Shown: positions 4,632 through 23,249 of the stretch, piece after piece | Numbering within the stretch: the stretch's first letter is position 1 | Layout of the letters: every line of letters starts with the position of its first letter | Source of the DNA: a virus | Length of the DNA: 23,370 bases | Direction: 5' to 3' (one strand) | Virus record (IMG/VR): IMGVR_UViG_3300047481_002042 | Location: 1-23,370 of that record | Notes under the pieces: generated by a model | Told to the model about the DNA's origin: nothing | The model's database searches: none | Seen by the model: only the letters and a program-made list of their open reading frames with translations | Program-made: the position numbers and the translations under genes

Positions 4632-5756
4632 TTATTTTTTATTTTTTAGTAAGGACTCATTTACTGGGTATACTACATCTTTTGGATTATTTGGTTTAAA
4701 CTCAGGTTTTCGCATTACTGTTGCAGCTACTAATCTTTTACTTGGGATGAGATTCAATTTATTTGATTTGGGATTTATAGCAATGTAAAATGGTACATTT
4801 ATATTTGTTGATAAATCTCTCAAAATACCTTGTGCATCTATACTTAGATCCTTGAACTGAGTACCATATTTACTATATATTTTATCAAATAATGCTTGCA
4901 ACTCCGGAGGTGTAATTGGCTTTTTGTTGCGCAAAAGATTAACTTGATCAGCGAAGTGTTTTGAAAAGTGAATATCTAATGGAATATCACTATATTTCTT
5001 ATCCAAGTTAATGTCTAAAGTCTGTATATGTTGTGGGGTAACAAACTCCTTCAACAAATCTCCAGCCATTTCTATCTTACGTGCTTCAATCTTTTTATTA
5101 GCTAACTTTTCAAGATAACCCGTATTTCTAAGGTGTTTAAATGCAAGATTCTCTATTGAATATTCACCATCTTTATCTAATCCACTTTGTCTAAGTTGAT
5201 TAATTTTATCTTTGAGTTTATCTAGCTTAGCTACGCTGCCCGATTTAGTTGGATCTACTTTCTCGATGCTGGCTGCAATTGGTTCTGCTTTTGATTTTAT
5301 TTCTTTGTCGGATATCTCAATCTTTTCTTTTGATGGCTTTTTAACCCATTTATCATCTTGAATGGAGTATATTCCCATTATATGTGGCCGCTCATCATTT
5401 TTATCTTCTACATAAACTTCTACTGGGTTAGATCCATATTTTAGATCGTACTTATCTCCAAATAAATCCTTAGCTGCGTTGAAATAGTTTCTTGCCATTT
5501 CAGCATCTTTAAACTTACTAAAATCAACTACAAGGTGGATGTCTATATCGCTTGTTGGTGTCCAGTTGTAATTTGCTGAACTTCCTGTTAGTATTATATC
5601 CTCAATGGGTGCTTTGATATCTAGTTCCTTATAAAACCGCTCAGCAACCTTTAATAATACATCTCTAAGTTTTTTCTTAATAGAATCCCCATCGAATACC
5701 TTTGGATTAAGTTCGTTTTTATTTCGGTATTCTACTAAATCACGTAGTTTGATCAT
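4632..5756 (-). CDS. Nucleotidyltransferase-fold protein fused to a conserved phage C-terminal domain
   Basis: I chose the ATG at 5756-5754, giving 374 residues; a TTG lies one codon upstream. Residues 55-75 show the nucleotidyltransferase superfamily signature GSSANYNWTPTSDIDIHLVV (G-S, then D70-x-D72), with a plausible further acidic residue in VEVYVED (112-118). Such domains transfer NMP groups to protein, RNA or antibiotic targets; the target here is unknown. Residues 120-230 form a charged helical linker containing LLKE. The C-terminal domain (about 260-345) has H-F...QVN-LLRN-KPIT...EL and NVPFYIAI segments that I recognise from other marine phages but cannot name. The first residues, MIKLRDLVE, resemble the head-targeting leader seen elsewhere in this window. 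An upstream promoter-like element lies at 5772-5781. It sits between an exported protein and the neck genes. Confidence 0.8.
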   Translation of the reverse strand: MIKLRDLVEYRNKNELNPKVFDGDSIKKKLRDVLLKVAERFYKELDIKAPIEDIILTGSSANYNWTPTSDIDIHLVVDFSKFKDAEMARNYFNAAKDLFGDKYDLKYGSNPVEVYVEDKNDERPHIMGIYSIQDDKWVKKPSKEKIEISDKEIKSKAEPIAASIEKVDPTKSGSVAKLDKLKDKINQLRQSGLDKDGEYSIENLAFKHLRNTGYLEKLANKKIEARKIEMAGDLLKEFVTPQHIQTLDINLDKKYSDIPLDIHFSKHFADQVNLLRNKKPITPPELQALFDKIYSKYGTQFKDLSIDAQGILRDLSTNINVPFYIAINPKSNKLNLIPSKRLVAATVMRKPEFKPNNPKDVVYPVNESLLKNKK

Positions 5757-5771
5757 CAATCAAAATGTTTC

Positions 5772-5781
5772 TTATAAATAG
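5772..5781 (-). promoter_or_regulatory. Candidate late promoter element (CTATTTATAA)
   Basis: In the gene direction this reads AACTATTTATAAG and ends 15 nt before the nucleotidyltransferase ATG. It abuts the downstream arm of the 5782-5811 hairpin and is identical in its core to copies at 7621, 19204 and 23253. Confidence 0.5.
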
Positions 5782-5811
5782 TTTTAGTTTGGGGAAATAA
5801 ATAAACTAAAA
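5782..5811 (-). terminator. AT-rich hairpin after the exported-protein gene
   Basis: A perfect 9-bp inverted repeat (TTTTAGTTT at 5782-5790 and AAACTAAAA at 5803-5811) with a 12-nt loop follows the stop at 5816-5818 immediately. There is no clear U-tract on the minus strand, so it may be a weak terminator, a 3'-end stabiliser or an operator-like site next to the promoter element. Confidence 0.4.
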
Positions 5812-5815
5812 GCAT

Positions 5816-6325
5816 TTATGGTATTACTTTCTGGAAGTATGTAGTATGAATATCGTAAATGTATGTATTCTCAGTTATATCATTATAAACTCTGATTTGC
5901 TTTACCGGACTTGCTTTGAGCTTATCCATGTCTTCAGTTTCAAAGTTTATAATAGCTAGAATTCTACAGCTTAATCTCTGTTCAGACACTCTCGATATTG
6001 TGTCATTTCTATCTGTAATAAGAGTTAGTCTAGTTGCATCTGAGCAATATCCATCCACAGGAGGGCCTTTCTTTAAATCTATAGGCTTTGGCATTCTATC
6101 CTTGTAATAAACCTTTATAGTGCGAACATACTGGTATTCCTTAGCCATATCAATATTCTCTACAATGGGTTGGATAATTGTTGTATCCCTAGTAGTATCC
6201 CTTAAAATAAGTGGGTTTGGTTGAGGAACGTCTAATCGACTTTGGCCTTCAACGTTTTTTAAATTGTAATCATTAACAAATAGCAATGCTATTGTTAGCA
6301 GTGTTGTTGCGATTGTGCGGTACAT
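5816..6325 (-). CDS. Exported protein of unknown function
   Basis: This 169-residue protein starts at ATG 6325-6323. The N-terminus has a typical signal peptide: basic MYR, a hydrophobic core of about TIATTLLTIALLFV (residues 4-18), then a polar stretch with possible cleavage around VEG-QS (residues 26-29). There is no lipobox Cys. The mature part has a Thr/Asp-rich segment (RDTTRDTTI) and two Cys residues (about 93 and 120) that could form a disulfide, as expected for a periplasmic protein. No family recognised. It lies 42 nt downstream of phoH. The leader contains TTTTATAC, a poor match to the promoter element. An envelope-directed role, such as superinfection exclusion or lysis, is conceivable but unsupported by motifs. 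Confidence 0.68.
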   Translation of the reverse strand: MYRTIATTLLTIALLFVNDYNLKNVEGQSRLDVPQPNPLILRDTTRDTTIIQPIVENIDMAKEYQYVRTIKVYYKDRMPKPIDLKKGPPVDGYCSDATRLTLITDRNDTISRVSEQRLSCRILAIINFETEDMDKLKASPVKQIRVYNDITENTYIYDIHTTYFQKVIP

Positions 6326-6367
6326 TGTTTTGTGTATAAAAGGTTAAGGAACCCTACAACAACATAA

Positions 6368-7048
6368 CTAATCTCGGAAATCAGAATACACTTTTAGGAT
6401 AGGTTCAACTATTTCGTGTCTGTGGTTTGTCTTTAGAGTAAGTACTTTAACTCCTTGAACATTCTCCTCCAATCTAGCGAAAAAGCTAATACCACTATCC
6501 TTTTTTGTTTTTAAGTCTACTTGAGTTATATCACCACAGAATACCATCTTACCACCTTTACCAAGTCTTCCGATAATCATTTCTGTTTGACCGTGTGTTA
6601 TATTTTGACACTCATCCACAATTACAAAGGCATTTGGAAATGTTCTACCTCTCATAAATGCAAATGGAACTATCTCAATTTCACCTTCAGCTACCATCTT
6701 TTCAACTTTCTCTTTTTCATAAAGCATTTGAAGATTGGCGTATATTGGAGCTAACCACGGATCCATTTTTTCTTTCATGTCTCCTGGTAAAAATCCAATC
6801 TCTTCACGTGATACAGTTGGTCTTGTGATTATAATTCTTTCAACCTCTCTTTTAAAGAACATATCCAAAGCTACACTACAGGCAGCTAAGGTTTTACCCG
6901 AACCGGCCATTCCCTTTAGTAGTACAACTGGATTTTCATATATTACTGCCTTTGCATTTTTTTGCTCCTCGTTTAAGTCAATCTTAAACTTTATTGGATT
7001 CTTAGGCTTTCTCTTTTCCAGATTACTTACTTTTTGATCCTGATTCAT
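6368..7048 (-). CDS. phoH: PhoH-like ATPase
   Basis: This 226-residue protein is a single PhoH-type P-loop domain. Walker A is GMAGSGKT (residues 46-53), Walker B is AFVIVDECQN (140-149, with D145/E146), a RPTVSREEIGFLPGD segment (76-90) is typical of PhoH, and GDITQVD (172-178) plus a C-terminal TNHRHEIV (about 207-214) complete the RNA-helicase-like core. PhoH proteins are common in phages of many hosts. They are ATPases of uncertain biological role, with RNA-binding or helicase activity proposed. The lysine-rich first 20 residues are not part of the domain. The gene has its own promoter-like element (7065-7074) after the terminator that closes the preceding gene. Confidence 0.95.
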   Translation of the reverse strand: MNQDQKVSNLEKRKPKNPIKFKIDLNEEQKNAKAVIYENPVVLLKGMAGSGKTLAACSVALDMFFKREVERIIITRPTVSREEIGFLPGDMKEKMDPWLAPIYANLQMLYEKEKVEKMVAEGEIEIVPFAFMRGRTFPNAFVIVDECQNITHGQTEMIIGRLGKGGKMVFCGDITQVDLKTKKDSGISFFARLEENVQGVKVLTLKTNHRHEIVEPILKVYSDFRD

Positions 7049-7064
7049 AAGAACGCTTATTTAA

Positions 7065-7074
7065 TAATAAATAG
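7065..7074 (-). promoter_or_regulatory. Candidate late promoter element (CTATTTATTA)
   Basis: In the gene direction it reads AACTATTTATTATT, one mismatch from the consensus, ending 16 nt before the phoH ATG. It lies just downstream of the 7097-7120 terminator, which supports a new transcription start here. Confidence 0.5.
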
Positions 7075-7096
7075 TTTGATAGCCTGGCTTAAGGCT

Positions 7097-7120
7097 AAAA
7101 AAGCCGGGTTATTTACCGGC
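7097..7120 (-). terminator. Rho-independent terminator overlapping the end of the double-leader gene
   Basis: On the minus strand GCCGG and CCGGC (7116-7120 and 7103-7107) form a GC stem around an 8-nt loop that contains the stop codon at 7111-7109, followed by a run of six T (7102-7097). The stem therefore uses the last codons of the gene. Confidence 0.75.
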
Positions 7121-7285
7121 TTTCTTTTCTTTGTCCTTCAAAGCTTTTTTCATCGGTTCTTTTTTATCATCGTCTTTATCCATATCAAGGAAATCAGGCT
7201 TCGCTTTCTTTTTTGCTTTTTTGGCTTCAGTAAGTATAGATTGTATCTCTTGTCTTATGATTTGTTTAAGTTCTGATAGTTTCAT
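7109..7285 (-). CDS. Possible internal in-frame start giving a 58-residue leader + basic-tail protein
   Basis: An in-frame ATG at 7285-7283 begins MKLSELKQIIRQ and is preceded by AAAGAAAAACAAGATAAT, an A-rich leader like those before accepted starts in this window. Initiation here would give a separate protein made only of the leader and the lysine-rich tail. The alternative is that this Met is simply internal and the leader was duplicated within one protein. The sequence alone cannot separate these. Confidence 0.35.
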   Translation of the reverse strand: MKLSELKQIIRQEIQSILTEAKKAKKKAKPDFLDMDKDDDKKEPMKKALKDKEKKAGK

Positions 7286-7609
7286 ATTATCTTGTTTTTC
7301 TTTTAGTCCGAATGGTTCTCCAGCTAATCCGTGAATTGTACTTCTAAATAGCTTTTGAGCTCCTTGTTGTATTGCGTTTACTATGTTTTGTTTGATTTGT
7401 GGATTTGTTAATATTACATTTACTTTTCCATTATCTGGGCTATGAAACATCGCTTGTATGCTAATGCTCATTTGATTATTGTCATCTATATGTAAATCAA
7501 CAGCTGGTAAGTCGTCAAACACATCAGTATCCCCAGTTGTAGCTGAATTTACTTCTAATACTGAGGCAACTTCCTCTCTGATAACCTGGATTAGATCTCT
7601 TAGTTTCAT
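7109..7609 (-). CDS. Leader-bearing head-associated candidate with two copies of the leader peptide
   Basis: The full ORF gives 166 residues from ATG 7609-7607. It has two parts, each starting with the same kind of amphipathic leader: MKLRDLIQVIREEVASVLE (residues 1-19) and MKLSELKQIIRQEIQSILTE (109-128). Between them is an acidic and beta/helical domain (20-105) with AVDLHIDDNNQMSISIQAMF. After the second leader comes a strongly basic, lysine-rich tail (KKAKKKAKPDF...KDKEKKAGK). The leaders end at or near (L/I)-x-E, the T4 prohead protease rule. It lies directly downstream of the major capsid gene and has its own terminator and promoter element. I infer an internal head protein; the folded domain is not one I recognise. 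It could equally be a fusion of two former genes. Confidence 0.75.
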   Translation of the reverse strand: MKLRDLIQVIREEVASVLEVNSATTGDTDVFDDLPAVDLHIDDNNQMSISIQAMFHSPDNGKVNVILTNPQIKQNIVNAIQQGAQKLFRSTIHGLAGEPFGLKEKQDNMKLSELKQIIRQEIQSILTEAKKAKKKAKPDFLDMDKDDDKKEPMKKALKDKEKKAGK

Positions 7610-7620
7610 TGTGTTGTTTA

Positions 7621-7630
7621 TTATAAATAG
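7621..7630 (-). promoter_or_regulatory. Candidate late promoter element (CTATTTATAA)
   Basis: In the gene direction it reads GACTATTTATAATAAAC and ends 11 nt before the ATG at 7609. It lies only a few bases downstream of the terminator that ends the capsid operon, the clearest context for a promoter in this window. Confidence 0.55.
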
Positions 7631-7634
7631 TCAT

Positions 7635-7664
7635 ATAAAAAAGAAACCCCGCTTTTGGCGGGGC
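7635..7664 (-). terminator. Strong Rho-independent terminator after the major capsid gene
   Basis: On the minus strand GCCCCGC-CAAAA-GCGGGG (stem arms 7658-7663 and 7647-7652) is followed by TTTCTTTTTT. It starts about 22 nt after the stop at 7688-7686 and closes the gp22-gp23 transcription unit. Confidence 0.88.
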
Positions 7665-7685
7665 TCTCTAGGTTAATTATTCAGA

Positions 7686-9356
7686 TTACAAAGTATTAAG
7701 ATCCGCAACGTAAACCTTACCGTAGAATTCAGGACGAGTTACTACTTTCGCGTAACGAGTCATTACACCACGACGTGGAATGAAGTTATTTGGATCGTAT
7801 ACAAGTGGAGTCATCATTAGTGGGATGTATGGAGCGTAAACAGCACCTGTTTCAAGGAACTGAGATCCACGGAAGCCCATCAAGATTGTATTCTCTTGCA
7901 TGTATGGGTTCTTATAAACTTGGTAGCGGCTTGTGATCGAACCAACTTTCTGCACACCCATTGCAAACTTCATCTTCAATCCATCTGTATCAGCAGCGTA
8001 TCCTGGGATCGACTCGAGGATTGTAGCTACGTTTGGAGAACATACTAAGAAGTTAGCACCACCACGAAGGGTTTTGGCGTGAATTTGGTTAGATACTTTT
8101 TGAAGCTTAGTACCAAGAGTTTGGAACCAAGTACCTTGAATGTAGGCAGTACCAGTATACTCTTGAGTTTGAAGCGTTTGACCAGCTGCATTATACTCAC
8201 GACCGATTCTAGCTGACCAGTACTCAGTTGTAGCAGCTGCGTTAATAAGCATATCAAGAATCTCAAGGTCAATTTCCATTGACACGTATTCTGAAAGCAT
8301 GCTTGTTAATTCAGCTTCTGCATCCACTGAGTGGTAAGCGTTAAGATCTTGTGCAAATTCTGGAGTCCAGCTTGCTTTCAACTTACGGGTCTTAGCAGTT
8401 ACTGGAATTGAACGCATTTGCAATTCAATTTCAGGAATATTGAGGTTAATATCAAGATCCTGAGCACTTGTTGCCGATGCACGCTGAGTTCTGTATTCAA
8501 AATCAGAGCGGTTATCGTTTTGTGGTTGGATTGAGTATGATACCGCGGTAGCTACAGTAGCTCCTGACCATACGGCTGTAGATCCAGTAACTACGAACAC
8601 TAGATCATTACCACTCTTTCTAGTAAAAGCTGGTAAGTATTGTGTGTTTGCTGTTAATGCAGCGTTGTTTGATCCTGAGAGTGGGATGAAGCTTCTTACT
8701 GCGTACGGATCTGCGTTGGTATTCAACGTAAAGAAGTTTGAGAAGGTCAACGTTTTCCAGTTGTTAGTCAATGCGTGACCACCAACAATTGAAGCGGTAT
8801 AACCCCCATCAAAGTTAACATCAGATAAAGCAGCTGCACCAGTTGCAATTAGGCCTGATCCAGTACCGACATAATTCACAGAGAATCCAAAGCGACCAGC
8901 ACCATAAAGACCATCTGTAGCGTCAGTTGATGCAGTTGTGATACCTTGTAGTGTACCAACTTGATCTTTTGATCCTGGAGAGAATCCAAATGGCTGCTTA
9001 TCGGTACCGTATTTGAAGTCAAGATAGAACACAAGGCCTGAAGGCAAGTTCATCGGCTGTACAGAAACGAATTCTTTAGCTGCAATTTCAGCAAAGATAC
9101 GACGTACAAGCGGAAGAGCTACACCATGCCATTGTTCAAAGCCTGCTCCGGCTGATCCCATCCCAGATGATTCGGCTGAACCTTCCTTAATTAATTGTTT
9201 TGCTTGGTTTTCAAGAAGGACAGCTACGGTTGATTTCTCATTACCGCCTCTAAGACCTTCCAATAAACCTGTCTTTGTCCACTTATTGATTAGTGGTTTC
9301 ACTTCGGCCGCACGAGAGTAGTCGTTTGTGCCTTCGAAAAGATTTAGTTTTTCCAT
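7686..9356 (-). CDS. 23: Major capsid protein, T4 gp23-like
   Basis: This 556-residue protein has the gp23 layout. An N-terminal propeptide (about residues 1-58) is rich in charged helices and ends at LIKE|G (I56-K57-E58), a match to the gp21 cleavage rule. The conserved capsid core follows: FEQWHGVALPLVRRIFAEIA (about 73-92), then FVSVQPMNLPSGLVFYLDFKYG, a variable beta insertion with many Asn and Gly residues (about 140-290), the TRKLKASWTPEFAQDLNAYH segment, and EYVSMEIDLEILDMLI. The C-terminal part includes PYIPLMMTP and PRRGVMTRYAKVV. It forms the hexameric lattice of the prohead. It follows the scaffold gene by 30 nt and is followed by a strong terminator. There is no Shine-Dalgarno sequence even for this highly expressed gene. 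Confidence 0.96.
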   Translation of the reverse strand: MEKLNLFEGTNDYSRAAEVKPLINKWTKTGLLEGLRGGNEKSTVAVLLENQAKQLIKEGSAESSGMGSAGAGFEQWHGVALPLVRRIFAEIAAKEFVSVQPMNLPSGLVFYLDFKYGTDKQPFGFSPGSKDQVGTLQGITTASTDATDGLYGAGRFGFSVNYVGTGSGLIATGAAALSDVNFDGGYTASIVGGHALTNNWKTLTFSNFFTLNTNADPYAVRSFIPLSGSNNAALTANTQYLPAFTRKSGNDLVFVVTGSTAVWSGATVATAVSYSIQPQNDNRSDFEYRTQRASATSAQDLDINLNIPEIELQMRSIPVTAKTRKLKASWTPEFAQDLNAYHSVDAEAELTSMLSEYVSMEIDLEILDMLINAAATTEYWSARIGREYNAAGQTLQTQEYTGTAYIQGTWFQTLGTKLQKVSNQIHAKTLRGGANFLVCSPNVATILESIPGYAADTDGLKMKFAMGVQKVGSITSRYQVYKNPYMQENTILMGFRGSQFLETGAVYAPYIPLMMTPLVYDPNNFIPRRGVMTRYAKVVTRPEFYGKVYVADLNTL

Positions 9357-9386: not shown

Positions 9387-10619
9387 TTATTCTTCGTTTG
9401 AAAGTCCTGCTAATTTTTGGAATCTATTTACAATTGTATTTGACTCCGTTAAGATTTGTGTCTTCTTCACAGGGGTAGAAGCAAATCCTTCCATAACCTT
9501 TGTTTTCTTAGTTGTTGCTCTGATTGCGAATGATTCAGATAGAGTTGTGTAGATGATTTTGGTTTCACGTACAGTTGCTGCTCTGTCGAATGTTTCTACT
9601 ACGCGTACTTTATCACCTTCAGATAAGTTGTGCTTTTTGAAGAGTTTATTTACGTAAAGTAGTTTTGCATTTAAGAGATTCACTTCGTTGATTTTTTCAC
9701 GGAGATGTTCGATTACTGAGTAGGCTTCTTCGAGTTCTTCTGTGGCTGCAACGGATTCTTCTCTATTTCCGTAACCGGCCATGCCTTCAAAGGTGTCTAG
9801 TATGTTTTCAGCCCATTTAGAGCCCTTCTTCGCTTTTGCCTCAAGCCATTTTTTAACAGCTAACACAGTGCCTGTGGCTGTTATAGTTCCACCAATCACA
9901 CCCATTATTATTTTCCAGCTTAATACTGCTGCACCTGCTGTGGCGGCTAATTCACTTACCGCATCTACCGGTTCCTTCATTAATGGATCTTGATCATCGG
10001 AAGGAACCTCCATATCACCATCTTCATCATCCTCACGCAAAGCTGCGATTACTTCATCGAGGTTGATTTCTTCATCGAGGTCTTCTTCAAGTACTGGATG
10101 TGGATCTTCTTGTGGTTCTGGTAGCTCTTCTTCTTCGTCGTCAGCTTCGGCTAATTCCTCTTCTTCGAGTTGACGGATAATTTCTTCTAGATCAGCATCA
10201 ACGCCTTCTTCGAATTCATCATCGCCATATCCTGTGTCTTCATCGTCGTCATCAGGGAATTCATCTTTGTCATCATCACCTTGATACTCGGGCCCAATAT
10301 CAAAAGTCTCTTCGTCATCGTCATCGTCGTCAAATTCAGGATCATACTCATTAAGGCCGGCAAGCTCTTTCATACGTTCTGCCATATCGCCTTCTTTGTT
10401 CATCATCTCATTCTCAGGTTTCATCTCATCTTCCATGTAAGTTCCCTCTTTTGTGTTGTCATCTTCGGGATCCTTATCCATTTCCATTTTGATTTTCTCA
10501 GAGAACACTCTTTGCATTTGAGGTGCAAATGCTTCCTCTAATGCTAGTTTTGCATTCGCAAGAGCTGTTTCACGCACAGCTTTAGCGTCTGCGATTGCAT
10601 CTTTTAACAATTTGTTCAT
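9387..10619 (-). CDS. 22: Prohead scaffold/core protein, T4 gp22-like, with a hydrophobic central segment
   Basis: This 410-residue protein precedes the capsid gene, as gp22 does in T4. Residues 1-45 are a helical start (MNKLLKDAIADAKAV...) with LEE|A. Residues 50-215 are extremely acidic, with Asp/Glu runs. Residues 220-256 are unexpectedly hydrophobic (AATAGAAVLSWKIIMGVIGG and on) and end in KKWLEAKAKKGSK. The C-terminal third has the gp22-type INEVNLLNAKLLYVNKLF segment, an RAATVRETK region and the end NRFQKLAGL seen in marine T4-like scaffolds. The role is an internal scaffold that shapes the prohead and is then degraded by the protease. The membrane-like segment is unusual for a scaffold and may be a tether or a core oligomerisation helix. 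Confidence 0.88.
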   Translation of the reverse strand: MNKLLKDAIADAKAVRETALANAKLALEEAFAPQMQRVFSEKIKMEMDKDPEDDNTKEGTYMEDEMKPENEMMNKEGDMAERMKELAGLNEYDPEFDDDDDDEETFDIGPEYQGDDDKDEFPDDDDEDTGYGDDEFEEGVDADLEEIIRQLEEEELAEADDEEEELPEPQEDPHPVLEEDLDEEINLDEVIAALREDDEDGDMEVPSDDQDPLMKEPVDAVSELAATAGAAVLSWKIIMGVIGGTITATGTVLAVKKWLEAKAKKGSKWAENILDTFEGMAGYGNREESVAATEELEEAYSVIEHLREKINEVNLLNAKLLYVNKLFKKHNLSEGDKVRVVETFDRAATVRETKIIYTTLSESFAIRATTKKTKVMEGFASTPVKKTQILTESNTIVNRFQKLAGLSNEE

Positions 10620-10791: not shown

Positions 10792-11238
10792 TTACTGATT
10801 ATTTTTAATGTCGTCAAAATTTACCACAACCTGCACGTTATCTGGTAGTACATTAACAATTAATCCGCGTTTTGTAACTTTGATAACCTGTCCTTCGGAA
10901 CCTAAGAATTGTGTGTTTGGATTGTATCTTTTTACTGCACTGAAGTCAAATTCAATAGTTGGTACGTCTTTTTGTGGGGCTGCTTTGGCACCACCTTCTT
11001 CCTCATCTCCTTCCTCTCCACCTTCAGCACCTGCTTCTTCGCCTCCCTCTTCTCCACCTGCTGCTGCATCATCTCCGCCTGCTGCGAATGGATTTTCTCC
11101 ACCACCTTCTTCTTCTCCACCAGCATCATCAGCAGGTGCATCATCTTTTGGTGCTTCCTCTTCTTCTGCTTCTCGTAAAGCTTTTACTACGTAGGATCTA
11201 ATTAGATCGCGGAGTTCGTTTATGGAGTTCTTTTTCAT
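10792..11238 (-). CDS. Acidic leader-bearing prohead core-like protein
   Basis: This 148-residue protein starts at ATG 11238-11236. It opens with the leader MKKNSINELRDLIRSYVVKA followed by LRE|A (residues 21-24), then a Glu/Gly/Ala/Asp low-complexity region (25-88) encoded by GAA/GGT-rich repeats, and ends with a compact basic/beta domain: PTIEFDFSAVKRYNPNTQFL, then GQVIKVTKRGLIVNVLPDNV. Position between the protease and scaffold genes matches the small acidic core proteins gp67/gp68 of T4, and composition fits, but I see no sequence identity that would prove either. The leader plus LxE suggests prohead incorporation and cleavage. The shadow reading frames over its repeat are not genes. Confidence 0.78.
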   Translation of the reverse strand: MKKNSINELRDLIRSYVVKALREAEEEEAPKDDAPADDAGGEEEGGGENPFAAGGDDAAAGGEEGGEEAGAEGGEEGDEEEGGAKAAPQKDVPTIEFDFSAVKRYNPNTQFLGSEGQVIKVTKRGLIVNVLPDNVQVVVNFDDIKNNQ

Positions 11239-11511: not shown

Positions 11512-11907
11512 TTATTCGCTATCGACAAGATTCTCATCAGGACCTTTTATCTCATAATATCTAGATAGTGTGTGACCAATATCCTCATACAAAGCCTCTA
11601 AGCGCTGTTGCATTTTTGACATTTCGTGTATTGTCTCTACGAAGTTCTTTCTTTTAGTGTTAAGCTGTTTTATTTCTCGCTTAATAGTTACTTCATCAAA
11701 CCAATCCTGAGCTTCTTCTAATGTGATTGTTTCTGCTTTTTCGCACAAGCTATTAATACTCTCAGCTACTTTACGCAAGTCTTCGGTACGATAAATTACA
11801 GAGCCATACTCATTAAAACGCTCTACTTCTTGTAGAAATGATTTTTTTTCTTCTAAGCTTGTCTTAGGATTAAGGCTTTCGATTATGTTTTTTAGTTTCA
11901 GTTTCAT
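11512..11907 (-). CDS. Helical/coiled-coil protein following the prohead protease gene
   Basis: This 131-residue protein starts at ATG 11907-11905, right after the protease stop (11909). It begins MKLKLKNIIESLNPKTSLEE, a start that resembles the leader family loosely, with IIE|S and, later, FLQE|V tripeptides fitting (L/I)-x-E. The rest is almost entirely helical with coiled-coil stretches (EIKQLNTKRKNFVETIHEM, then QQRLEALYEDIGHTLSRYYE). One Cys is present. I do not recognise a family. Its place between gp21 and gp22 suggests a prohead core or assembly factor. Confidence 0.7.
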   Translation of the reverse strand: MKLKLKNIIESLNPKTSLEEKKSFLQEVERFNEYGSVIYRTEDLRKVAESINSLCEKAETITLEEAQDWFDEVTIKREIKQLNTKRKNFVETIHEMSKMQQRLEALYEDIGHTLSRYYEIKGPDENLVDSE

Positions 11908-11908: not shown

Positions 11909-12526
11909 TTACATTACAGATAAAATGTCAGATATAAGTGTGTTTATTTTGTAGTATGGATCTTTTTTTGATGTGTTTACTCCTTCATTAAGTGGAGATA
12001 CAAAAGCACCTTGTGTAGATGGATTACTTACTAAGTCCCAGCAAACAATTTCAAAGTCGTCTTGAACTTCCACTCTACCTTCACCAATTTGCTTTACAGA
12101 CCCCATACCACGTGAACTAATCCCAAGTCTAATTCCAGCTTTGAGTAATTCCTTTGCTATGTTGCCAGCTGGGGTTGGTAGTATTTCTAGTTTGCCAAGT
12201 AGGTCATTACCACTCCACCAAAGATCTAATATATTGTGTGATACATTTTGTAGGTTTACAACCGAGGAATCTGGGTGGTCTAGTTCTCCTAATGCACGTC
12301 TTTCACTGATAAAGGCTTGTTTATACTTTTCAGATTCACGACGAAGTATATCGAGTGGATAAAGTCTACCATTTTGGTTGATAGCTTTATCTTGTGGTGT
12401 AGAGCCTCTTTGTAGGATACCTTGTACGATAAGGCGGCCGTCGTTTGCAGATAGTGATTCGTTTATCTGCTGTGGTGTTATCTCTAGTGCACCAATATAG
12501 TCGATTATAAGTTTCTTATTTTCCAT
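11909..12526 (-). CDS. 21: Prohead core protease, T4 gp21-like (peptidase S77 family)
   Basis: From ATG 12526-12524 this gives 205 residues; the ORF can be extended to a TTG at 12550, but the ATG better matches the length of T4 gp21 (about 212) and overlaps the upstream stop by 11 nt. Conserved gp21 features are NGRLYP (52-57), ALGELDHP (78-85, likely catalytic His84), DLWWSGNDLLGK (101-112) and GISSRGMGS (135-143, likely catalytic Ser). It is activated inside the assembled prohead, cleaves scaffold, capsid propeptide and internal proteins after (L/I)-x-E, and then destroys itself. This makes it the obvious processing enzyme for the many LxE-bearing leader proteins in the window. Confidence 0.93.
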   Translation of the reverse strand: MENKKLIIDYIGALEITPQQINESLSANDGRLIVQGILQRGSTPQDKAINQNGRLYPLDILRRESEKYKQAFISERRALGELDHPDSSVVNLQNVSHNILDLWWSGNDLLGKLEILPTPAGNIAKELLKAGIRLGISSRGMGSVKQIGEGRVEVQDDFEIVCWDLVSNPSTQGAFVSPLNEGVNTSKKDPYYKINTLISDILSVM

Positions 12527-15749: not shown

Positions 15750-17342
15750 TTATAGTAACCACGTTATGTCGTGATCAACTCCATCGATATTTTGTTTCCA
15801 GGGGTTGTTGTTTACAACTCTTTGTGTACCTGAGTAGAGACTTATTGTATTTTTTATACCATTAACTGCCATTTTGCTTAATTCGATCCCAGCTTGTCTT
15901 AGCTTTAGTGCTGTGTCACGTACCCATAAACCTTGTGCCCAGCTCATCACCAAATCGTCATTATATCCTTGTGCAGCCTCAGCTCTAGCGTTTTTCCATA
16001 CAAATACAAGGAGTTCATCCATAAGTCTTCTACTCCTTATTATACACCCTTTTTCTCGCATATACAACTCTAATTTACTAATAGCCAGCGGTCTAATCTT
16101 ACTACTTAGTGTAAACCCTGCAACCATGTCGCTTTTGTTGGCTACATCATATCCTTTCGTAAGGTATGTATCTGAGTCAAATACGTTTTCTTTATAGGAA
16201 TAGTAGATATTTTTATAATCTCTTTCCATTACTTGTTGGATTGTTGCCCATCCAACATTAGCATTTTCAATTACAAGCAATGCGTCATTATACTCAGTTG
16301 CAACACTGACAAGCATATTTCCAAAGTCTCTGGTTGTTAGTTGGCCTTTGTATTCAGCTACCTGTATTGCACTCTCTACATCTATAACGTGAAAGGCTGA
16401 GTAGTCGGATCCATCCCCACGAGCAACGTCGGCTGTGACTATGTAATCTCTTGTGTATGATGGTCTTTCCCAAACCCATATATTGTTGTCGAATCCTCTT
16501 TTTTCAATTGGATCTTGAGTATAGGTTTGTAGGTAGTATTGTAATATATCAGGCATTATGACTGTATTACCTGATGTTGAAAAGTCGCAATCACATTCCT
16601 GTGCTGCTAATCTTATACCTAATTCTACGTCTTGTTTATCTCGCCAAGATTGATCTCGTTCTGGATGAACTTGCCATGGTAGTCTTATTGTGTTAAATGT
16701 ATTTTCTCCTGACTCGGCTTTCACCCACATCTTATGGAAAAAATTACCAGTACCATTTGGGGTACTTAATAATACTGCTCTACCACCAGTAGACAGTGTT
16801 TGTTGCAATGATGCCCACAACTCCTCTGCATTATCAACGAAAGCTGCCTCATCTATAATTACTAATGATAGCGCTTCTGAACGACCTGATGTTCCAGTTG
16901 ATGCTACTGCTTTGATTTGAGATCCATTGCTTAGTCTAAGCGATAGTTTATTATCTTCCGCAGTCTTTAACTTAAGCCAACTTGGTAAGTTCTCATACAT
17001 TACTCGAACCTTAGTTACAAGGTTCTTTGATGTTGTTTGATCAATCGCAACTACTAGGATATTTTTATCATTATGAAATAGGATAGTCCATAATGAATAG
17101 CCAGCTATTAGTGTTGATATACCTAGCTGACGACTTTTTAGAATGATGTTACGATCGTGATCTTGGAATTGTTGTAATGCATCCTCTTGAAAAGGATATA
17201 GTTGAAACTGTATTTTCCCTCGAGTCGGGTGCTGTATCATGCAGTACTTTTTCATAAAGTAGACTGCTGACGTAGCGCATTTTACATACTCCTCTCTTAT
17301 TAACTGCTTAATTGGTTTTTGTGCACTACTACCATTAGACAT
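15750..17342 (-). CDS. 17: Terminase large subunit, T4 gp17-like
   Basis: This 530-residue protein has both terminase domains. The ATPase part shows the Walker A-like KSRQLGIST (69-77), Walker B LVIIDEAAF (160-168, D164/E165) and the coupling motif STPNGTGN (193-200). The nuclease part shows TADVARGDGSD (303-313, catalytic D305), LLVIENANVGW (355-365, E359) and a later YNDDLVMSWA that would supply the third acidic residue. It powers DNA packaging and makes the headful cut. The start ATG lies 1 nt after the stop of the spanin-like gene, without a Shine-Dalgarno sequence. It is somewhat shorter than T4 gp17 (610 residues). No small terminase gene is visible in this window. Confidence 0.97.
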   Translation of the reverse strand: MSNGSSAQKPIKQLIREEYVKCATSAVYFMKKYCMIQHPTRGKIQFQLYPFQEDALQQFQDHDRNIILKSRQLGISTLIAGYSLWTILFHNDKNILVVAIDQTTSKNLVTKVRVMYENLPSWLKLKTAEDNKLSLRLSNGSQIKAVASTGTSGRSEALSLVIIDEAAFVDNAEELWASLQQTLSTGGRAVLLSTPNGTGNFFHKMWVKAESGENTFNTIRLPWQVHPERDQSWRDKQDVELGIRLAAQECDCDFSTSGNTVIMPDILQYYLQTYTQDPIEKRGFDNNIWVWERPSYTRDYIVTADVARGDGSDYSAFHVIDVESAIQVAEYKGQLTTRDFGNMLVSVATEYNDALLVIENANVGWATIQQVMERDYKNIYYSYKENVFDSDTYLTKGYDVANKSDMVAGFTLSSKIRPLAISKLELYMREKGCIIRSRRLMDELLVFVWKNARAEAAQGYNDDLVMSWAQGLWVRDTALKLRQAGIELSKMAVNGIKNTISLYSGTQRVVNNNPWKQNIDGVDHDITWLL

Positions 17343-17343: not shown

Positions 17344-18093
17344 CTAAAACTTAATTATATTATATTGTAAACCCAATCCTACACCTACGACGGGACGTTG
17401 ATTTATGAAGTCGTAGGTAATTTGTATACTTGGACCAAAACCAAAATGTTTCTTTTTAGGTATTGGCTCTTTGTCTAGATTGGCTCCTATTATATTTACT
17501 ATTTTTAGACTTGTGTCGCTTGGTATTACAAATATATTCCGAGTGCCATCCGATTCTTTTTTAATACCTACAGTTAATCCAAATCGAACTTCATCTTTAA
17601 ATATTTTTGTAAAGCCTGGTAGGATCTCAACTTTGCCGGGAACTTCTTTTTCGTTTGGTGTTTGTGTAACTCTAAAGCTTGATACACCTTCAAGTAATCT
17701 ACTTTCTGTTTTATATCCAAACTTTAAACCAAGAGAACCATCTTCTAATACCGTTAAGTCATTACTCAGGTTCAAAGTTGCTCCAACGTATTGTACATCT
17801 GTTTTTATTATAACCTCAGGCTTTCCACCTTTAACTTTATCCAACTCTTTTTTGAGATCAGCATTAAGTTTCTCTAGTGTTTCTTTGTCTGTGAATAGGA
17901 TGGCTTTTTGATATTGTAATTGACCATTTCTTAACTTCACTTCTGATAGGGTATCTGTAAGGGCTGCTATGTTTTGTTTATTCATTTGTTCGGCGTAAGC
18001 AGCATCTTTGCAGCCCTTACCTAATAAAGCAAGTAACACTAGGAGTCCTAGTGTCACAGCTGTACTATAATAAACAATTAATTGATTTTTCAC
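17344..18093 (-). CDS. Membrane-anchored coiled-coil protein, possible spanin
   Basis: The start is a GTG at 18093-18091 that overlaps the upstream TGA (GTGA). The 249-residue product has one N-terminal membrane helix (about residues 5-25, STAVTLGLLVLLALLG), a Cys at 28 without a convincing lipobox, a coiled coil over about 36-90 (LSEVKLRNGQLQYQKAIL, then ETLEKLNADLKKELDKVKGG), and a beta-rich C-terminal half that ends GVGLGLQYNIIKF, like an outer-membrane beta-signal. The pattern resembles DUF6808/DUF6549-type proteins of Bacteroidota phages and prophages. A protein tied to the inner membrane, spanning the periplasm and touching the outer membrane would suit a one-piece spanin that fuses the membranes in lysis. 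This role is inference; no holin or endolysin is seen nearby. Confidence 0.7.
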   Translation of the reverse strand: MKNQLIVYYSTAVTLGLLVLLALLGKGCKDAAYAEQMNKQNIAALTDTLSEVKLRNGQLQYQKAILFTDKETLEKLNADLKKELDKVKGGKPEVIIKTDVQYVGATLNLSNDLTVLEDGSLGLKFGYKTESRLLEGVSSFRVTQTPNEKEVPGKVEILPGFTKIFKDEVRFGLTVGIKKESDGTRNIFVIPSDTSLKIVNIIGANLDKEPIPKKKHFGFGPSIQITYDFINQRPVVGVGLGLQYNIIKF

Positions 18094-18431
18094 TGAATTA
18101 AGTTATTTTTTGTTGCTCTAAGCACACTCATAATTCCATCTTTATCTAATCCAAAGCCACCAACAATCTTAGTAACAACGTTTGTAATGTTGTCCACATC
18201 ATCACTTTCTGGAATCTCTTTGAGTTTTGAAAGATACTTGCTTGTTAACTTAGTCATCATTGCACCATAATCCTCATCATCAGTAGGCTCTTCTTCCTCA
18301 GGTTCCTCTTCAGGTTCTTCCTCAGTTGGCTCTTCTTCTGGTTCCTCTTCAGGCATTTCCTCTTCTGCTTCTAGAATTCGTTTGATTACACGACGTATTT
18401 CTTCGCGAAGTATTTGTTCTTTCCTTTTCAT
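18090..18431 (-). CDS. Leader-bearing acidic protein with Pro-Glu repeats
   Basis: This 113-residue protein starts at ATG 18431-18429, overlapping the upstream stop as TAATG. The leader MKRKEQILREEIRRVIKRIL is followed by ILE|A (residues 19-22) and then by a nearly pure Glu/Pro repeat (about 23-50) before a small helical domain (LTSKYLSKLKEIPESDDVDN). It shares the leader with the acidic core-like protein at 10792-11238 and has the same plan: basic amphipathic leader, acidic low-complexity part, small C-terminal domain. I infer a prohead internal or core protein. The function of the C-terminal domain is unknown. Confidence 0.72.
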   Translation of the reverse strand: MKRKEQILREEIRRVIKRILEAEEEMPEEEPEEEPTEEEPEEEPEEEEPTDDEDYGAMMTKLTSKYLSKLKEIPESDDVDNITNVVTKIVGGFGLDKDGIMSVLRATKNNLIQ

Positions 18432-18799
18432 TATTTTAGTGTTAGTAGGTATTTCAATTTATTAATAGCTTGCAACATTTCATCTCTAATATTTAGTAGA
18501 TCTGTGTCAGCTGCAGAGTCAAGTTGATTTGTTAGTCCTAATAGGAATTGTGTGGCATCATTTAAAAAGGATGGTATATCTATTTGATCCATATCTTTTA
18601 GTACTACACCATTGGTTTGTCCCAATTTAACTCGCCCATACTTACCCATATAAGCCTCAACAAAAGCATCAATAAGATCGTCTAGGCTGTCGTAAATACC
18701 ACCATACGCTTGGTGTCTAGCGTAGTGGTTTGTCTGCCAGTGAAATATTCGAAACTGCTGCTGCAGTTGTATGAACATAGCTACAAAACTAGTCTTCAT
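18431..18799 (-). CDS. Small Dps/ferritin-like helical protein (DUF5856 type)
   Basis: This 122-residue protein contains FRIFHWQTNHYARHQAYGGI (16-35), followed by YDSLDDLIDAFVEAY (36-50). The HW...H...D...E spacing recalls the Dps ferroxidase motif: H20-W21, H29, D44 and E48, with the D-to-E and second H-to-D spacings (4 and 15) as in Dps. The Asp expected four residues after the second His is a Gly (33), and the loop between the two His is three residues short. Dps proteins are about 160 residues with four helices, so this is a reduced version. I recall the family as DUF5856, found in large phages. Its ATG overlaps the previous gene by 11 nt. Metal or DNA binding is plausible but not shown. 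Confidence 0.75.
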   Translation of the reverse strand: MKTSFVAMFIQLQQQFRIFHWQTNHYARHQAYGGIYDSLDDLIDAFVEAYMGKYGRVKLGQTNGVVLKDMDQIDIPSFLNDATQFLLGLTNQLDSAADTDLLNIRDEMLQAINKLKYLLTLK

Positions 18800-19193
18800 C
18801 GTTTAAAATTTCTTTAAGTTTGATTGTTGGTTTATCTAGCATAGTATCAAACTTATTACCATACTTCTTTTTAATGTAGGATTTATTTTCCTTTTCAGTA
18901 GCCCTAGTTCTTTTTTCAGCTTCCTTTTCTGTTGTGGACTTTGTTTTCTTCTTTTTATTTGGCTCAATCTTTTTTTCAGCCAATACCTCACGAACAGACT
19001 CTGCGATAAGTTCTCTTAGTTTTGATATTTTTTTCATCGTATTTTCGTTAGCGTTGATATGTAGTGCCGCTATTTGTTTTTTTGCTTTTTCTTTAGTCAT
19101 CGGTTCTTTTGAAAAGCTTTTTGAAGTACCTTTCTTAAAAACCTTGTATACTGCGCCTTCTCCTTTTTTAACTTTTTTTATTTGATAGGGCAT
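18789..19193 (-). CDS. Two-module basic protein with an internal leader peptide
   Basis: This 134-residue protein starts at ATG 19193-19191 with a promoter-like element 10 nt upstream. Residues 1-48 are a small basic module with a YKVFKKGTSKSFSKEPMTKE segment and an IAALHIN end, a type found as stand-alone mini-proteins or domains in large phages. An internal Met at 53 then begins MKKISKLRELIAESVREVL, closing with VLAE|K, the same leader found at the N-terminus of other genes here. The remainder is a lysine-rich tail. Either the two modules were fused, or an internal ATG (19037-19035) makes a second, leader-first product. It is followed by overlapping genes down to the spanin-like one. An internal head protein role is inferred. 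Confidence 0.72.
   Translation of the reverse strand: MPYQIKKVKKGEGAVYKVFKKGTSKSFSKEPMTKEKAKKQIAALHINANENTMKKISKLRELIAESVREVLAEKKIEPNKKKKTKSTTEKEAEKRTRATEKENKSYIKKKYGNKFDTMLDKPTIKLKEILNDED
18975..19037 (-). other. Internal copy of the leader peptide with in-frame ATG
   Basis: This segment encodes MKKISKLRELIAESVREVL plus AE, in frame within the 134-residue protein. The ATG at 19037-19035 follows CGAAAATACG and could serve as a secondary start. It is the clearest example of the leader sitting inside a longer ORF, apart from 7226-7285. Confidence 0.5.
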
Positions 19194-19203
19194 AGTCCTT
19201 TAT

Positions 19204-19213: not shown

Positions 19214-19226
19214 TTGCATTTTTTTC

Positions 19227-19943: not shown

Positions 19944-19944
19944 T

Positions 19945-20562
19945 TTACTTTTTCTGTAAGTGATTGAATAAAATACCACCTATAGTTGCAGATATAATTT
20001 GCATTTGATTAGTTTGTGTGGTATCTAACTTGTGCTTCTTTTTAGTGTAATCAATTCCTAAACAACCTATAAGTTTTCCACTTATATTATGTACAGCAAA
20101 AATATACTGACTTTTAATATCAAAGTCTTCGGCTATATATTGCATTCCGTAATTTTGTATGTGGGGATCGTGAAAATCTGAGATCGCAACATATCCTTTG
20201 TTTGTAACATCTTTTAAGACTTTACTAAATAAATTTACTGGAATGTTCTGGTAATATGCCTGCACGGATTCGGTTTCTGGCGAGGTCACCTCATAAAACA
20301 TACTATACTTTTGTATTGATTTTCCTGTTGGATAAAAGTGACCACCGTTGTGAAACTGAATAAGCCAGGCTCTATCACATTTCATATTAATTACTAAATC
20401 GTCCAACTTATCAACCACAGAAGTAGCCACTTCCAACTCTTCCTTAATTGGATCTTTTTTTTCCTTGCGCTTTTCTAGCCAATCTCTAACTAACATAACC
20501 ACAATTGGTCCTACTACACCCGTTAGGAAGGCTACAAGTAAGTTAATGTGTATCTGTGTCAT
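19945..20562 (-). CDS. Membrane-anchored GAF-like sensor protein
   Basis: This 205-residue protein starts at ATG 20562-20560 and overlaps the previous gene by 20 nt. Residues 7-25 (NLLVAFLTGVVGPIVVMLV) are one membrane helix, followed by a basic stop-transfer stretch (KRKEKK) and a helix (40-60). The rest (about 60-200) looks like a GAF domain: DRAWLIQFHNGGHFYPTGKS, later VAISDFHDPHIQNYG, and LIGCLGIDYTKKK near the C-terminus. GAF domains bind small ligands or chromophores; I cannot see which ligand here. A single-domain membrane GAF protein without an output domain is odd for a phage. It could sense the host state, shield the membrane or act as a dominant partner of host receptors; all of these are speculation. 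Confidence 0.75.
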   Translation of the reverse strand: MTQIHINLLVAFLTGVVGPIVVMLVRDWLEKRKEKKDPIKEELEVATSVVDKLDDLVINMKCDRAWLIQFHNGGHFYPTGKSIQKYSMFYEVTSPETESVQAYYQNIPVNLFSKVLKDVTNKGYVAISDFHDPHIQNYGMQYIAEDFDIKSQYIFAVHNISGKLIGCLGIDYTKKKHKLDTTQTNQMQIISATIGGILFNHLQKK

Positions 20563-21043
20563 TTTCGTTTTGTTTAAGTTTCTCTATATACTCAGTAACC
20601 ATAGATGAAACTTTCTTTCTATCTTCTCCGACCCAAGCTTCTACAACACCATCTTCAGTAACGTGTTTTCTACTCACATCTTCTTTTATGAAGTCTTGCA
20701 GATAATCAATTAGATCTTTATTGAAACTTTTTTTGTTTGCGTTTTTTCTTTTTTCCAAATATTCTTCCCACTTACCTTGCTTCATTATTTCATGCTCTAA
20801 GTCAATCACACAATTAAAACAAACTCTGTGAGTGTCCCATGATTGTTGATTTAAGTAATGATTCATAGACTTTGAACATTGTGGGCATACTAGTGGTGCT
20901 AAGAAATACTTACGTGTATCTTCCATTTTGTTTATGGTACGTTTTACACCATTTTTAATAGTCCACGTTTTACCACTTTCTACCCAAACATCTCCTTCAA
21001 AATGTTTAATTGACTTTTTATTTTCACCTGCGAAATGTAACAT
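20543..21043 (-). CDS. Zinc-ribbon protein of unknown function
   Basis: This 166-residue protein starts at ATG 21043-21041, 1 nt after the stop of the 734-residue gene. It contains C53-P-Q-C56 and C75-F-N-C78, a four-cysteine zinc-ribbon-like site, after an N-terminal beta segment (GDVWVESGKTWTIKNGVKRT) that I recall from several marine phage proteins. The C-terminal half is helical and charged, with DLIDYLQDFIKEDV and a later VVEAWVGEDRKKVSSMVTEY segment. It probably binds nucleic acid or a partner protein through the zinc site. It carries no leader and no catalytic motif. Its place between two accessory genes gives little further clue. Confidence 0.75.
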   Translation of the reverse strand: MLHFAGENKKSIKHFEGDVWVESGKTWTIKNGVKRTINKMEDTRKYFLAPLVCPQCSKSMNHYLNQQSWDTHRVCFNCVIDLEHEIMKQGKWEEYLEKRKNANKKSFNKDLIDYLQDFIKEDVSRKHVTEDGVVEAWVGEDRKKVSSMVTEYIEKLKQNENDTDTH

Positions 21044-21044
21044 A

Positions 21045-23249
21045 TTATAACTTGTATTTTGTAAATAAATTTTGTAATCGATCGTTAAATTCCTTGAAAG
21101 CTTGAGTTATCTCTGATTTAACTTTATTTGAGTATGCCTCCGCTTGTTCCTTTGATTGTAATGTTTTTGCAAAAACTTTGCCACCAGTTGAGGATATTGT
21201 GATTTCCATTTTTAAATCTACACCAGGCATAGCTTGACTCTCTCTTTCAACTTCATGCTCAAAGTGCAATCTCAGGTTTAGAGCTGGTGCTGTGGCTACA
21301 ATCTCTTTTTCTTCTGTTAGATTTTCTTTTACACCAAAGCCACTTTGTAGTCCTTGTGTTAAAAATTTTCCAGTAATCTTAAATGGATGACCTTTATATA
21401 TTGCATCATCGTTGATTACAATTCCTTCATGCTTTTCTAGATCTCCAATCTCGCTGGTTGCATTGTTTAAAATCTCATCACCTAATTTCACAATTGCTGT
21501 ATATACAACGCTATCATTAATTACTTTTTGCAGGTCTAGATTTGGAAAATCCTGAGCTATATTTTTGCTATCAATTGCTTTTATATATTGCTGACGTGTA
21601 ATTAGTGGTGTTTGAAATTTCACATCCTTTAGCCAATCTCCTAATGTTTTTTCAACCGCAGTGCCTTGTGGATAAAGCGTTATCTTTTCAGATAATGGTC
21701 TTTGTAGGTTTGGAGTTGCTTTGAATTTAACATCAACTGTACCTAATACTTTAAAGCCATTTTTCTCAGCTACAACATTTAGCTTATTAATATAGTCTTG
21801 CATAGCCTGCTTATCGTAGCTTATATTGTTAGCTTCGCGAGACTTTACTCTACCAGTTTTAGGATCTACATTCTTAGGTTTTATTTCTTTTAATCCGTGG
21901 ATAGCTAAGAAGTTGCCTATATCGCCATATCCAATTACGTTTGTTTGTCCTTCTACGTATTCAATATTTAGTAGGATGTTTGGATTATCTATTAAGCCAA
22001 GTCGTTTTAACTCATTTCCTGTGGATGGAATTGCGTCGTTGAAGATTTTTAATACTTTACCACCTATCTTTATGAAGCCATGCTCTTGTCCATCTTTGGC
22101 TGGAAAGCGTGTTGGTAGGTCTGCCGTCGTAATTCCCTTAATATCTAAATCGCTTGCAGATCCTCTATCCATTGCAAACTCACGTTTACCATTAATATCG
22201 GCTAATCTTACCGATGCATTCACTCCATCTATTTTTACACTAGTACCACCTCTTTTTATAGACTCAATTGATTTTTTGAATACATTAATCAATCCTTCTC
22301 CAGTATTAGTAAAGTCAAAGGGGTGAGCCATATGACCTCCAGCACCACCCTCAGATAGCATACCCTTTGCAGCTTTTTTAATTTTTGGTGCTAGGTAAAG
22401 TCCCAACGCTACTATAGAGCCTCCAGGTATAGCTGCTATTCCTACTGCTTTGAGTGTTGTTATTAGTGCAGCTTTTTCTTCAGCATTTAGCTTTTCTCGA
22501 CGAACTAGTTTTGATAATCCACTTTTAGCATCACCTCCCTGCTCTTTTGCTTTTTGTATAAATTGCTTAATCTTAGAAGTATCAAAAGCCACCTCCTTTA
22601 TATTTGTTGGATTTTTTAGTAGTGTATTGGTGACTTTTTCTAACTCATCATCAGATAGGTTGGGGTAGTTTGATTTTATATTCTCAATATCCTTTTTTTG
22701 TATATCCCTTCTTAATACACTAGCGCTGATAGATCCATTAAATCCATCGGTTCTATTACTATAGTTAAGTGGAGTTACATCTACTGGTAATTTCACAGCC
22801 ATTACTCCTTGTGGAATGAATCGACCATCTTTAGTACCTTGTTTTTTGTATTTTTCATTGATAGCTTGAACAAACAAGTCTGACCTTTTGGCATCATCAC
22901 CTTTGCTACTTGCTGCCATTGCAAGTTTGGCTTTTGAGTTTTTAGACAATCTCAAAGCATACTCATAAGCAGCTTGCATTGGGTTATCGAAGTTTACTGG
23001 AATTACTTTTATTTTTGAGTTTGTAGCTAGAATATTCCAGATTTTTATAGATTCCTCTCTGGTAATTCCTTCACGCTCAACCGGTCCTACCATTACCAAC
23101 ACCTCTTTTACATCTTGTCTTTCTGCATATTTATCTGCTAATTGAAGATGTCCAGCGTGTGGTGGTTTAAATCCTCCTGGAAGGAGTACAGTGATGCCTT
23201 GCTCCTCTAGCAAGATACTTTCTACTAGATATTTAACTAAATCGTTCAT
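21045..23249 (-). CDS. Leader + cytidylyltransferase-like domain + DUF6267/ligase-like nucleotidyltransferase fusion
   Basis: This 734-residue protein starts at ATG 23249-23247. Residues 1-17 (MNDLVKYLVESILLEEQ) are leader-like with LLE|E. Residues 18-185 form an HxGH nucleotidyltransferase domain: PGGFKPPHAGH (24-34) and the SISASVLRRD signature (173-182), as in NMN adenylyl- or cytidylyltransferases. A helical linker with a hydrophobic, Gly-rich part follows (262-289). At 298-310 it reads LSE|GGAGGHMAHP, the usual start of DUF6267-type proteins. The ligase-like half has motif I KIDG (339-342), LLNIEYVEG (426-434), HEGIVI (607-612) and FKITGKF (623-629), as in covalent nucleotidyltransferases. 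Substrates are unknown; NAD-related chemistry or nucleic-acid end repair are both possible. LTE|E (644-647) precedes a C-terminal domain. The start ATG overlaps the preceding TGA. Confidence 0.85.
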   Translation of the reverse strand: MNDLVKYLVESILLEEQGITVLLPGGFKPPHAGHLQLADKYAERQDVKEVLVMVGPVEREGITREESIKIWNILATNSKIKVIPVNFDNPMQAAYEYALRLSKNSKAKLAMAASSKGDDAKRSDLFVQAINEKYKKQGTKDGRFIPQGVMAVKLPVDVTPLNYSNRTDGFNGSISASVLRRDIQKKDIENIKSNYPNLSDDELEKVTNTLLKNPTNIKEVAFDTSKIKQFIQKAKEQGGDAKSGLSKLVRREKLNAEEKAALITTLKAVGIAAIPGGSIVALGLYLAPKIKKAAKGMLSEGGAGGHMAHPFDFTNTGEGLINVFKKSIESIKRGGTSVKIDGVNASVRLADINGKREFAMDRGSASDLDIKGITTADLPTRFPAKDGQEHGFIKIGGKVLKIFNDAIPSTGNELKRLGLIDNPNILLNIEYVEGQTNVIGYGDIGNFLAIHGLKEIKPKNVDPKTGRVKSREANNISYDKQAMQDYINKLNVVAEKNGFKVLGTVDVKFKATPNLQRPLSEKITLYPQGTAVEKTLGDWLKDVKFQTPLITRQQYIKAIDSKNIAQDFPNLDLQKVINDSVVYTAIVKLGDEILNNATSEIGDLEKHEGIVINDDAIYKGHPFKITGKFLTQGLQSGFGVKENLTEEKEIVATAPALNLRLHFEHEVERESQAMPGVDLKMEITISSTGGKVFAKTLQSKEQAEAYSNKVKSEITQAFKEFNDRLQNLFTKYKL

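Follow-up and report, generated by a model that had tools for sequence, protein, structure and literature searches.

In phage T4, a short N-terminal peptide, the capsid targeting sequence (CTS), has an experimentally proven targeting function, and the prohead protease gp21 cleaves by the rule L/I-x-E (PMC9026906). Three injected T4 proteins inhibit host restriction enzymes (PMC12373910). In giant phages of the SPN3US/phiKZ type, head and ejection proteins bear N-terminal propeptides, 20-254 residues long, which a prohead protease removes (PMC10052503). Here we describe short N-terminal leaders (tags) in a virus contig of 23,370 bases, IMG/VR record IMGVR_UViG_3300047481_002042, analysed at its full length (the window) together with its relatives; the window is a fragment of a T4-like myovirus. 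A first-pass annotation had proposed that many unrelated proteins of the window carry one shared leader ending near (L/I)-x-E, by which they are packaged into the prohead and injected. This hypothesis is right in kind, and the system is wider than proposed: there are at least three tag classes, one of which is the C-terminal tail of the scaffold. Very probably the leaders direct proteins to the prohead core and can be removed there, and the whole is a large variant of the T4 capsid-targeting system, apparently not described before.

The sequences themselves show the tags, which are terminal in position and end in LxE with conservation dropping behind it, as well as the agreement with the capsid protein's site, the clustering around gp21 and the identity of class B with the scaffold. 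Class A is the leader MKKSELRQIIREEI..LNE, searched as DNA with a pattern for MKx(S/T)ELxxIIREE. The pattern was found in at least 120 stretches of IMG/VR (this and all match counts for the tag classes are lower bounds), a codon-permuted control pattern gave 0 matches, and a search through bacterial and archaeal genomes (257 Gb) gave 2 stretches only, from one metagenome-assembled genome. At least 153 matches are spread over at least 100 unrelated cargos. With a pattern lacking the ATG, Met lay precisely two codons upstream in 117 of 124 distinct matches, so that the tag is locked to the N-terminus; several of the 117 lie internally, in frame and each with a Met of its own, as the copy at 7285 in the window does. 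Residues 14-27, unconstrained by the pattern, contain [LI]xE in 79% versus 27% after shuffling (z 12.7; shuffle z-scores are guides, not exact probabilities, and contigs may share ancestry). The Glu of this motif varies in position from 16 to 26, conservation drops sharply past it, and P1' is A, G or S in 39 of 91. Behind class A, [LIV]xD, [LIV]xS and [LIV]xN were not enriched, and [LIV]xxE and [LIV]E not comparably so. Since LxE shifts relative to the class A helix yet keeps its own pattern, it looks as a protease site would.

The head genes to which the tags can be linked are the following (an arrow marks a candidate cut):

7686..9356, minus strand: major capsid protein gp23 (PF07068, E 1e-77), with a predicted propeptide cut at QLIKE58↓G

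9387..10619, minus strand: gp22-like scaffold, between gp21 and gp23, acidic and helical; PHROG and Pfam profile searches with it gave no match

11909..12526, minus strand: gp21-type prohead protease, the presumed processing enzyme (phrog_207, E 1e-54)

The profile match upholds the earlier assignment of the gp21-like gene, which also adjoins gp20, gp22 and gp23 in gene order, and a gp21 homologue was found in 20 of 20 relatives searched. In the capsid proteins of 81 relatives the cut reads [VIL]xE↓, with Glu58 and a V, I or L at P3 in all 81, a variable P2, and A, S or G at P1' in 75. This site fits the T4 gp21 rule and thereby ties the tags to the protease of the same genomes. Of 68 tagged genes in 14 long relatives, 73.5% are no more than 25 kb away from gp21, versus 24.9% of random small genes (0/2000). 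Among tagged contigs of 55 kb or longer (those found via the scaffold excluded), 24 of 28 carry the protease gene, versus 4 of 12 random contigs of that length, a small control (p 0.002). Tagged contigs without gp21 also miss gp23 and gp20, and four of them share 40-98 open reading frames with the T4-like set; they are probably fragments, an explanation to which G024 (136 kb) is the exception. In LR756508 (156486-158129) and G002 (71427-72491), the halves of the gp21 homologue are separated within long open frames of 576 and 367 amino acids, respectively, which suggests an intein or a domain insertion in the protease.

Class B (RMQKLAGIITE) is, by its sequence, the tail with which the scaffold ends at its extreme C-terminus. 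The motif (R/K)(M/F/W)xKLAG(I/L) occurs 26 times in 15 genomes, 11 times at the extreme C-terminus of scaffolds, 13 times at the N-terminus of small proteins and twice internally; reversed, it occurs 0 times in the same genomes. RMQKLAGI gave at least 121 matches in IMG/VR, of which 93 are extreme C-terminal (mostly in scaffolds, at least four in other proteins), 26 N-terminal and 2 internal, and a codon-permuted pattern gave 6 stretches. The N-terminal tags sit on at least 25 unrelated proteins, and all 25 distinct ones have [LI]xE within the next 12 residues (expected 47%, 0/1000). The scaffold tail is preceded by [LIV]xE in 89% (expected 34%), a candidate cut site, and in the tail alignment Arg, Leu-Ala and the upstream Glu are invariant. 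The window scaffold ends in QILTE↓SNTIVNRFQKLAGLSNEE, a class B peptide, and has a second, internal class B-like copy, RMKELAGLNE↓Y, at amino acid 82; AlphaFold models its tail as a helix (389-403) preceded by a low-confidence linker. Read most simply, class B cargo would join the core by borrowing the end of the scaffold: because class B copies the scaffold tail, such cargo probably uses the scaffold's own contact. The tag thus offers a concrete, testable docking rule. A tail RMQKLAGI(I/V)K also closes proteins unlike the scaffold in L337, L339, L394 and L405; in the first three it comes after (I/M)NE↓S, possibly a cleavable C-terminal version of the tag.

Class C (NF(D/N)LKKFLVENKLTxNSRLLxE, scanned as F(D/N)LKKFLxENKLTxNS(R/K)(L/M/I)LxE) is carried by at least 74 unrelated cargos, with the first ATG 3-4 codons upstream in 101 of 115. 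It contains [LIV]xE in 98.6% versus 41% expected and [LI]xE in 89% versus 30%, and again conservation falls just past the Glu.

In the window itself, the first-pass annotation had placed in one leader family the starts at 7609, 11238, 18431 and 23249, internal copies at 7285 and 19037, and looser relatives at 5756, 11907 and 10619. All these starts exist and the internal copies are in frame. We scored the window with a profile hidden Markov model (HMM) trained on 83 leaders found independently in IMG/VR; an HMM built from the annotation's own seeds was dropped as circular for the window, and an initial regular expression describing an amphipathic helix proved overly strict and uninformative. 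In 15 genomes 50 of 6664 candidate N-termini reached 12 bits, versus none of the shuffled sequences and, after scaling, about 5 internal-Met decoys. In the window only the 7285 copy (27.8 bits) and 7609 (12.2 bits) reached this value; 18431 had 6.6 bits, and 11238, 19037, 23249, 5756, 11907 and 10619 each had less than 1 bit. Because of these scores, the recurring leader is represented in the window by one two-copy gene, 7609-7109, the only window gene in the family, and one marginal candidate. The starts at 11238, 11907, 23249 and 5756 and the internal copy at 19037 have in common just an amphipathic beginning and an LxE-like site. The candidates are:

4632..5756, minus strand: nucleotidyltransferase-domain protein (PF01909), MIKLRDLVE↓Y, the weakest candidate (HMM below 0 bits)

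7109..7609, minus strand: two-leader protein, with MKLRDLIQVIREEVASVLE↓V (class A) at its N-terminus, next a domain some 90 amino acids long, then, at 7285, its other leader (MKLSELKQIIRQEIQSILTE↓A), followed by a basic/EF-hand-like module

10792..11238, minus strand: acidic prohead-core protein of gp67-like architecture, leader MKKNSINELRDLIRSYVVKALRE↓A

11512..11907, minus strand: conserved core-region protein with a short N-terminal leader

18090..18431, minus strand: small protein whose start, MKRKEQILREEIRRVIKRILE↓A, may be a class A leader, with an acidic stretch behind it (HMM marginal)

18789..19193, minus strand: MPYQ-type protein with a basic tail behind its internal helix, MKKISKLRELIAESVREVLAE↓K (HMM -1.0 bits; weak)

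21045..23249, minus strand: NMN-adenylyltransferase (NMNAT)-like enzyme, short leader MNDLVKYLVESILLE↓E directly ahead of the catalytic motif

The 7285 copy ends exactly in (L/I)xE (LTE), the 7609 leader nearly so (VLE). A relative of the 7609 cargo domain (residues 10-105) in L068 has a different leader, MKDFDIHEWQAKYLRE↓S, and in L030 the C-terminal module of the 7609 protein stands after an N-terminal leader; such swaps indicate that tags and cargo are exchangeable modules. The EF-hand-like module KPDFLDMDKDDDKKEPMKKALKDK (7109-7200; phrog_24078) reappears behind different leaders in L030 and L019.

Three of the earlier examples are not cargo with the shared leader: 10619 is the start of the scaffold, 11238 that of a gp67-like acidic core protein and 11907 that of a conserved core-region protein. 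In architecture the 11238 protein, which has no profile match, resembles T4 gp67 (an amphipathic start of small length and an LxE-like site precede a polyacidic C-terminal part, and the gene lies in the head cluster), and its relatives have unrelated leaders, yet an LxE-like junction before the acidic domain (MRSKELKDLIRREIVAALRE↓Q, ..FKQYLKE↓AED, ..LSVLKE↓AEK and ..DLMPLRE↓AEG). In the 11907 family (40 relatives), whose leaders differ too, [LIV]xE[ASGNK] stands before the conserved core in 70% versus 25% after shuffling (0/1000). These two proteins, one resembling gp67, the other conserved next to gp21 in many relatives, raise the possibility that tagged proteins are in general consumable core or assembly factors, which are core-bound and processed by gp21, act in head assembly and then leave or stay inert without being injected. 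Cores typically contain acidic or basic cargo, and T4 gp22, gp67 and gp68 get cut to pieces (PMC9958956). We consider this possible but rather unlikely for the tagged proteins as a whole, since the cargos of the three classes, which number at least 100, 25 and 74, are unrelated to one another and vary highly among genomes, which looks more like an accessory repertoire than like assembly parts, and since the candidates include an enzyme of NMNAT type and domains of nucleotidyltransferase type.

For the weak window members (19037, 5756, perhaps 18431 and 23249), the chance is slightly below even that they merely resemble the leaders because their starts are rich in Leu, Glu and Lys. That 19037, 5756 and 23249 score less than 1 bit agrees with this, and [LI]xE is common by chance: it occurs in 18% of internal segments, and the range over random segments and distant genes is 18-22%. 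On the other hand, the window starts are unusual as a group, with [LI]xE within residues 6-25 of 57% of the window proteins, and LxE starts are in excess near gp21. Among the relatives [LI]xE within residues 6-25 is found in 43.8% of genes up to 15 kb from gp21 versus 22.4% at more than 30 kb (p 7e-20), and [LI]xE[AGS] in 14.9% of the near genes versus 4.0% of distant ones. Moreover, NMNAT-like relatives with an N-terminal enzyme domain (G001, G020 and Microcystis phage Mel-JY01) bear short LxE-like leaders too; in the window enzyme, whose leader has no HMM support, the NCBIfam match (E 2e-4) starts at residue 19. The C-terminal part of the 5756 protein is related to a leader-bearing protein (113188) of Flavobacterium phage immuto, and a search for relatives of the 18431 protein found none. 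Taken by itself the window says little for an N-terminal gp21-site tag on unrelated proteins, a proposal that the sequences beyond it bear out strongly.

Several observations weigh against removable targeting peptides. [LIV]xK is enriched behind class A too (z 6.0), 9 of 100 class A leaders have no LxE in the tested stretch, and some tagged genes are 40-75 kb away from gp21. The terminase N-termini of several relatives (LKQIIREEYxKC), not expected to be cleaved, match the leader HMM, and a class A-like start is found on a baseplate-adjacent family. In the literature we found no virion proteomics or N-terminal sequencing for this phage group, immuto included; the paper on Baltic Flavobacterium phages contains no virion proteomics of immuto. 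The terminase and baseplate-adjacent starts would be expected if the shared N-terminus were an interaction helix apart from capsid processing (a coiled coil, a helix for assembling the tail or the baseplate, or an adaptor general to T4-like phages), with LxE as a by-product of Leu/Glu-rich helices, and so would the relative of the 18789..19193 protein in G001, which retains the helix while the final Glu is absent. We regard this as improbable, because the LxE enrichment is spacing-specific, its distance from the helix varies and conservation breaks off past the Glu, and because classes unrelated in sequence share the same ending, which the capsid protein has too.

The N-terminus of the window terminase (15750-17342), IKQLIREEYVKC, resembles the class A core (LRQIIREEI), with no LxE after it. 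Mimicry of terminase by class A is not claimed, terminase N-termini being one homologous family without LxE. Class A-like starts are also borne by proteins like MKLTELRKIIREEVREAIQDELKDILLEAVRSP (L168, L200, L205; G019:141169-141654; immuto 81525-81944; G001:55100-55561); the immuto and G001 genes adjoin baseplate genes, away from the head cluster.

Every substantial gene of the window is on the minus strand. They encode the NMNAT-like enzyme, small proteins, terminase, portal, the gp21-type protease, the gp22-like scaffold, gp23, PhoH, the nucleotidyltransferase-domain protein and neck proteins, among which gp17, gp20, gp21, the scaffold and gp23 are the T4-like ones. By capsid protein the closest isolates are immuto (54%) and Mel-JY01 (53%), with RM378 (40%) as a farther relative. 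Amid the cluster of tagged genes, the untagged gene 18431-18799 matches PF19174 (DUF5856) and phrog_858, annotated as starvation-inducible transcriptional regulator. In Mel-JY01 (L002 22183-22410), a bS21 gene sits between gp21 and the scaffold gene, as in the related bS21 phages, in which head-region genes are co-transcribed and late (PMC9723584).

We propose that a cargo protein is synthesized bearing a tag from a small stock (class A, B or C) and that the tag docks it onto the scaffold core during head building, class B cargo probably using the contact that the scaffold uses. Once the shell closes, the gp21-type protease would cut past (L/I)xE and destroy the scaffold; the cargo, now freed of its tag, would stay in the head and could enter the next host along with the DNA. 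Docking, cleavage, presence in virions and ejection are what the sequence features point to, and for cleavage, packaging and injection we also argue by analogy with T4, in which the same layout is experimentally proven. Cargo would thus copy or use scaffold contacts to enter the prohead core and be released by gp21; if true, docking by mimicry of the scaffold end would account for the choice of cargo by T4-like cores. A bolder version, to which we give even odds, is an interchangeable address code in T4-like phages that infect aquatic bacteria, in which at least three tags, one of them a copy of the scaffold tail, route hundreds of accessory proteins to the core, where they are cut by gp21, to be injected as first-strike effectors. 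Of 71 tagged cargos, none fits a known defence-system model (PADLOC) and very few match Pfam or PHROG, so that the cargo is a large unexplored set. The tags allow likely packaged proteins to be predicted from sequence among thousands of unannotated small phage proteins.

Like the CTS of T4 IPI, IPII and IPIII, the tags are short N-terminal peptides on unrelated proteins, end in (L/I)xE and occur in phages with gp21, gp22 and gp23; P1' is often Ala, as in IPII and IPIII, which begin MKTYQEFIAE↓A. Apart from the final xE, however, classes A, B and C by eye share little with IPI-III (MKTYQEFIAE), and we file them as functional analogues of the T4 CTS that appear not to be homologous in tag sequence. 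Unlike those of T4, the tags here fall into three classes or more, sit on many more families of cargo and also occur as tandem and internal copies, and class B is the scaffold C-terminus, although the N-terminus of T4 gp22 (MLKEQLIAE↓A) resembles the T4 CTS, a possible parallel to class B. The SPN3US/phiKZ-type phages likewise have N-terminal propeptides cut by a prohead protease; in the part of the source available, no common tag over many unrelated small proteins is described, and the protease family member and the set of proteins are different ones. The scaffolds of P22 and herpesviruses bind the shell via C-terminal helices. The scaffold described here similarly has a short C-terminal tail, helical in the model and beside a candidate protease site, but the same peptide also fronts other proteins. 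Encapsulin cargo-loading peptides are short and load unrelated proteins into an HK97-fold shell, as we propose for the tags from their sequences; they are usually C-terminal and not removed by a protease, whereas the tags are mainly N-terminal with a predicted protease cut.

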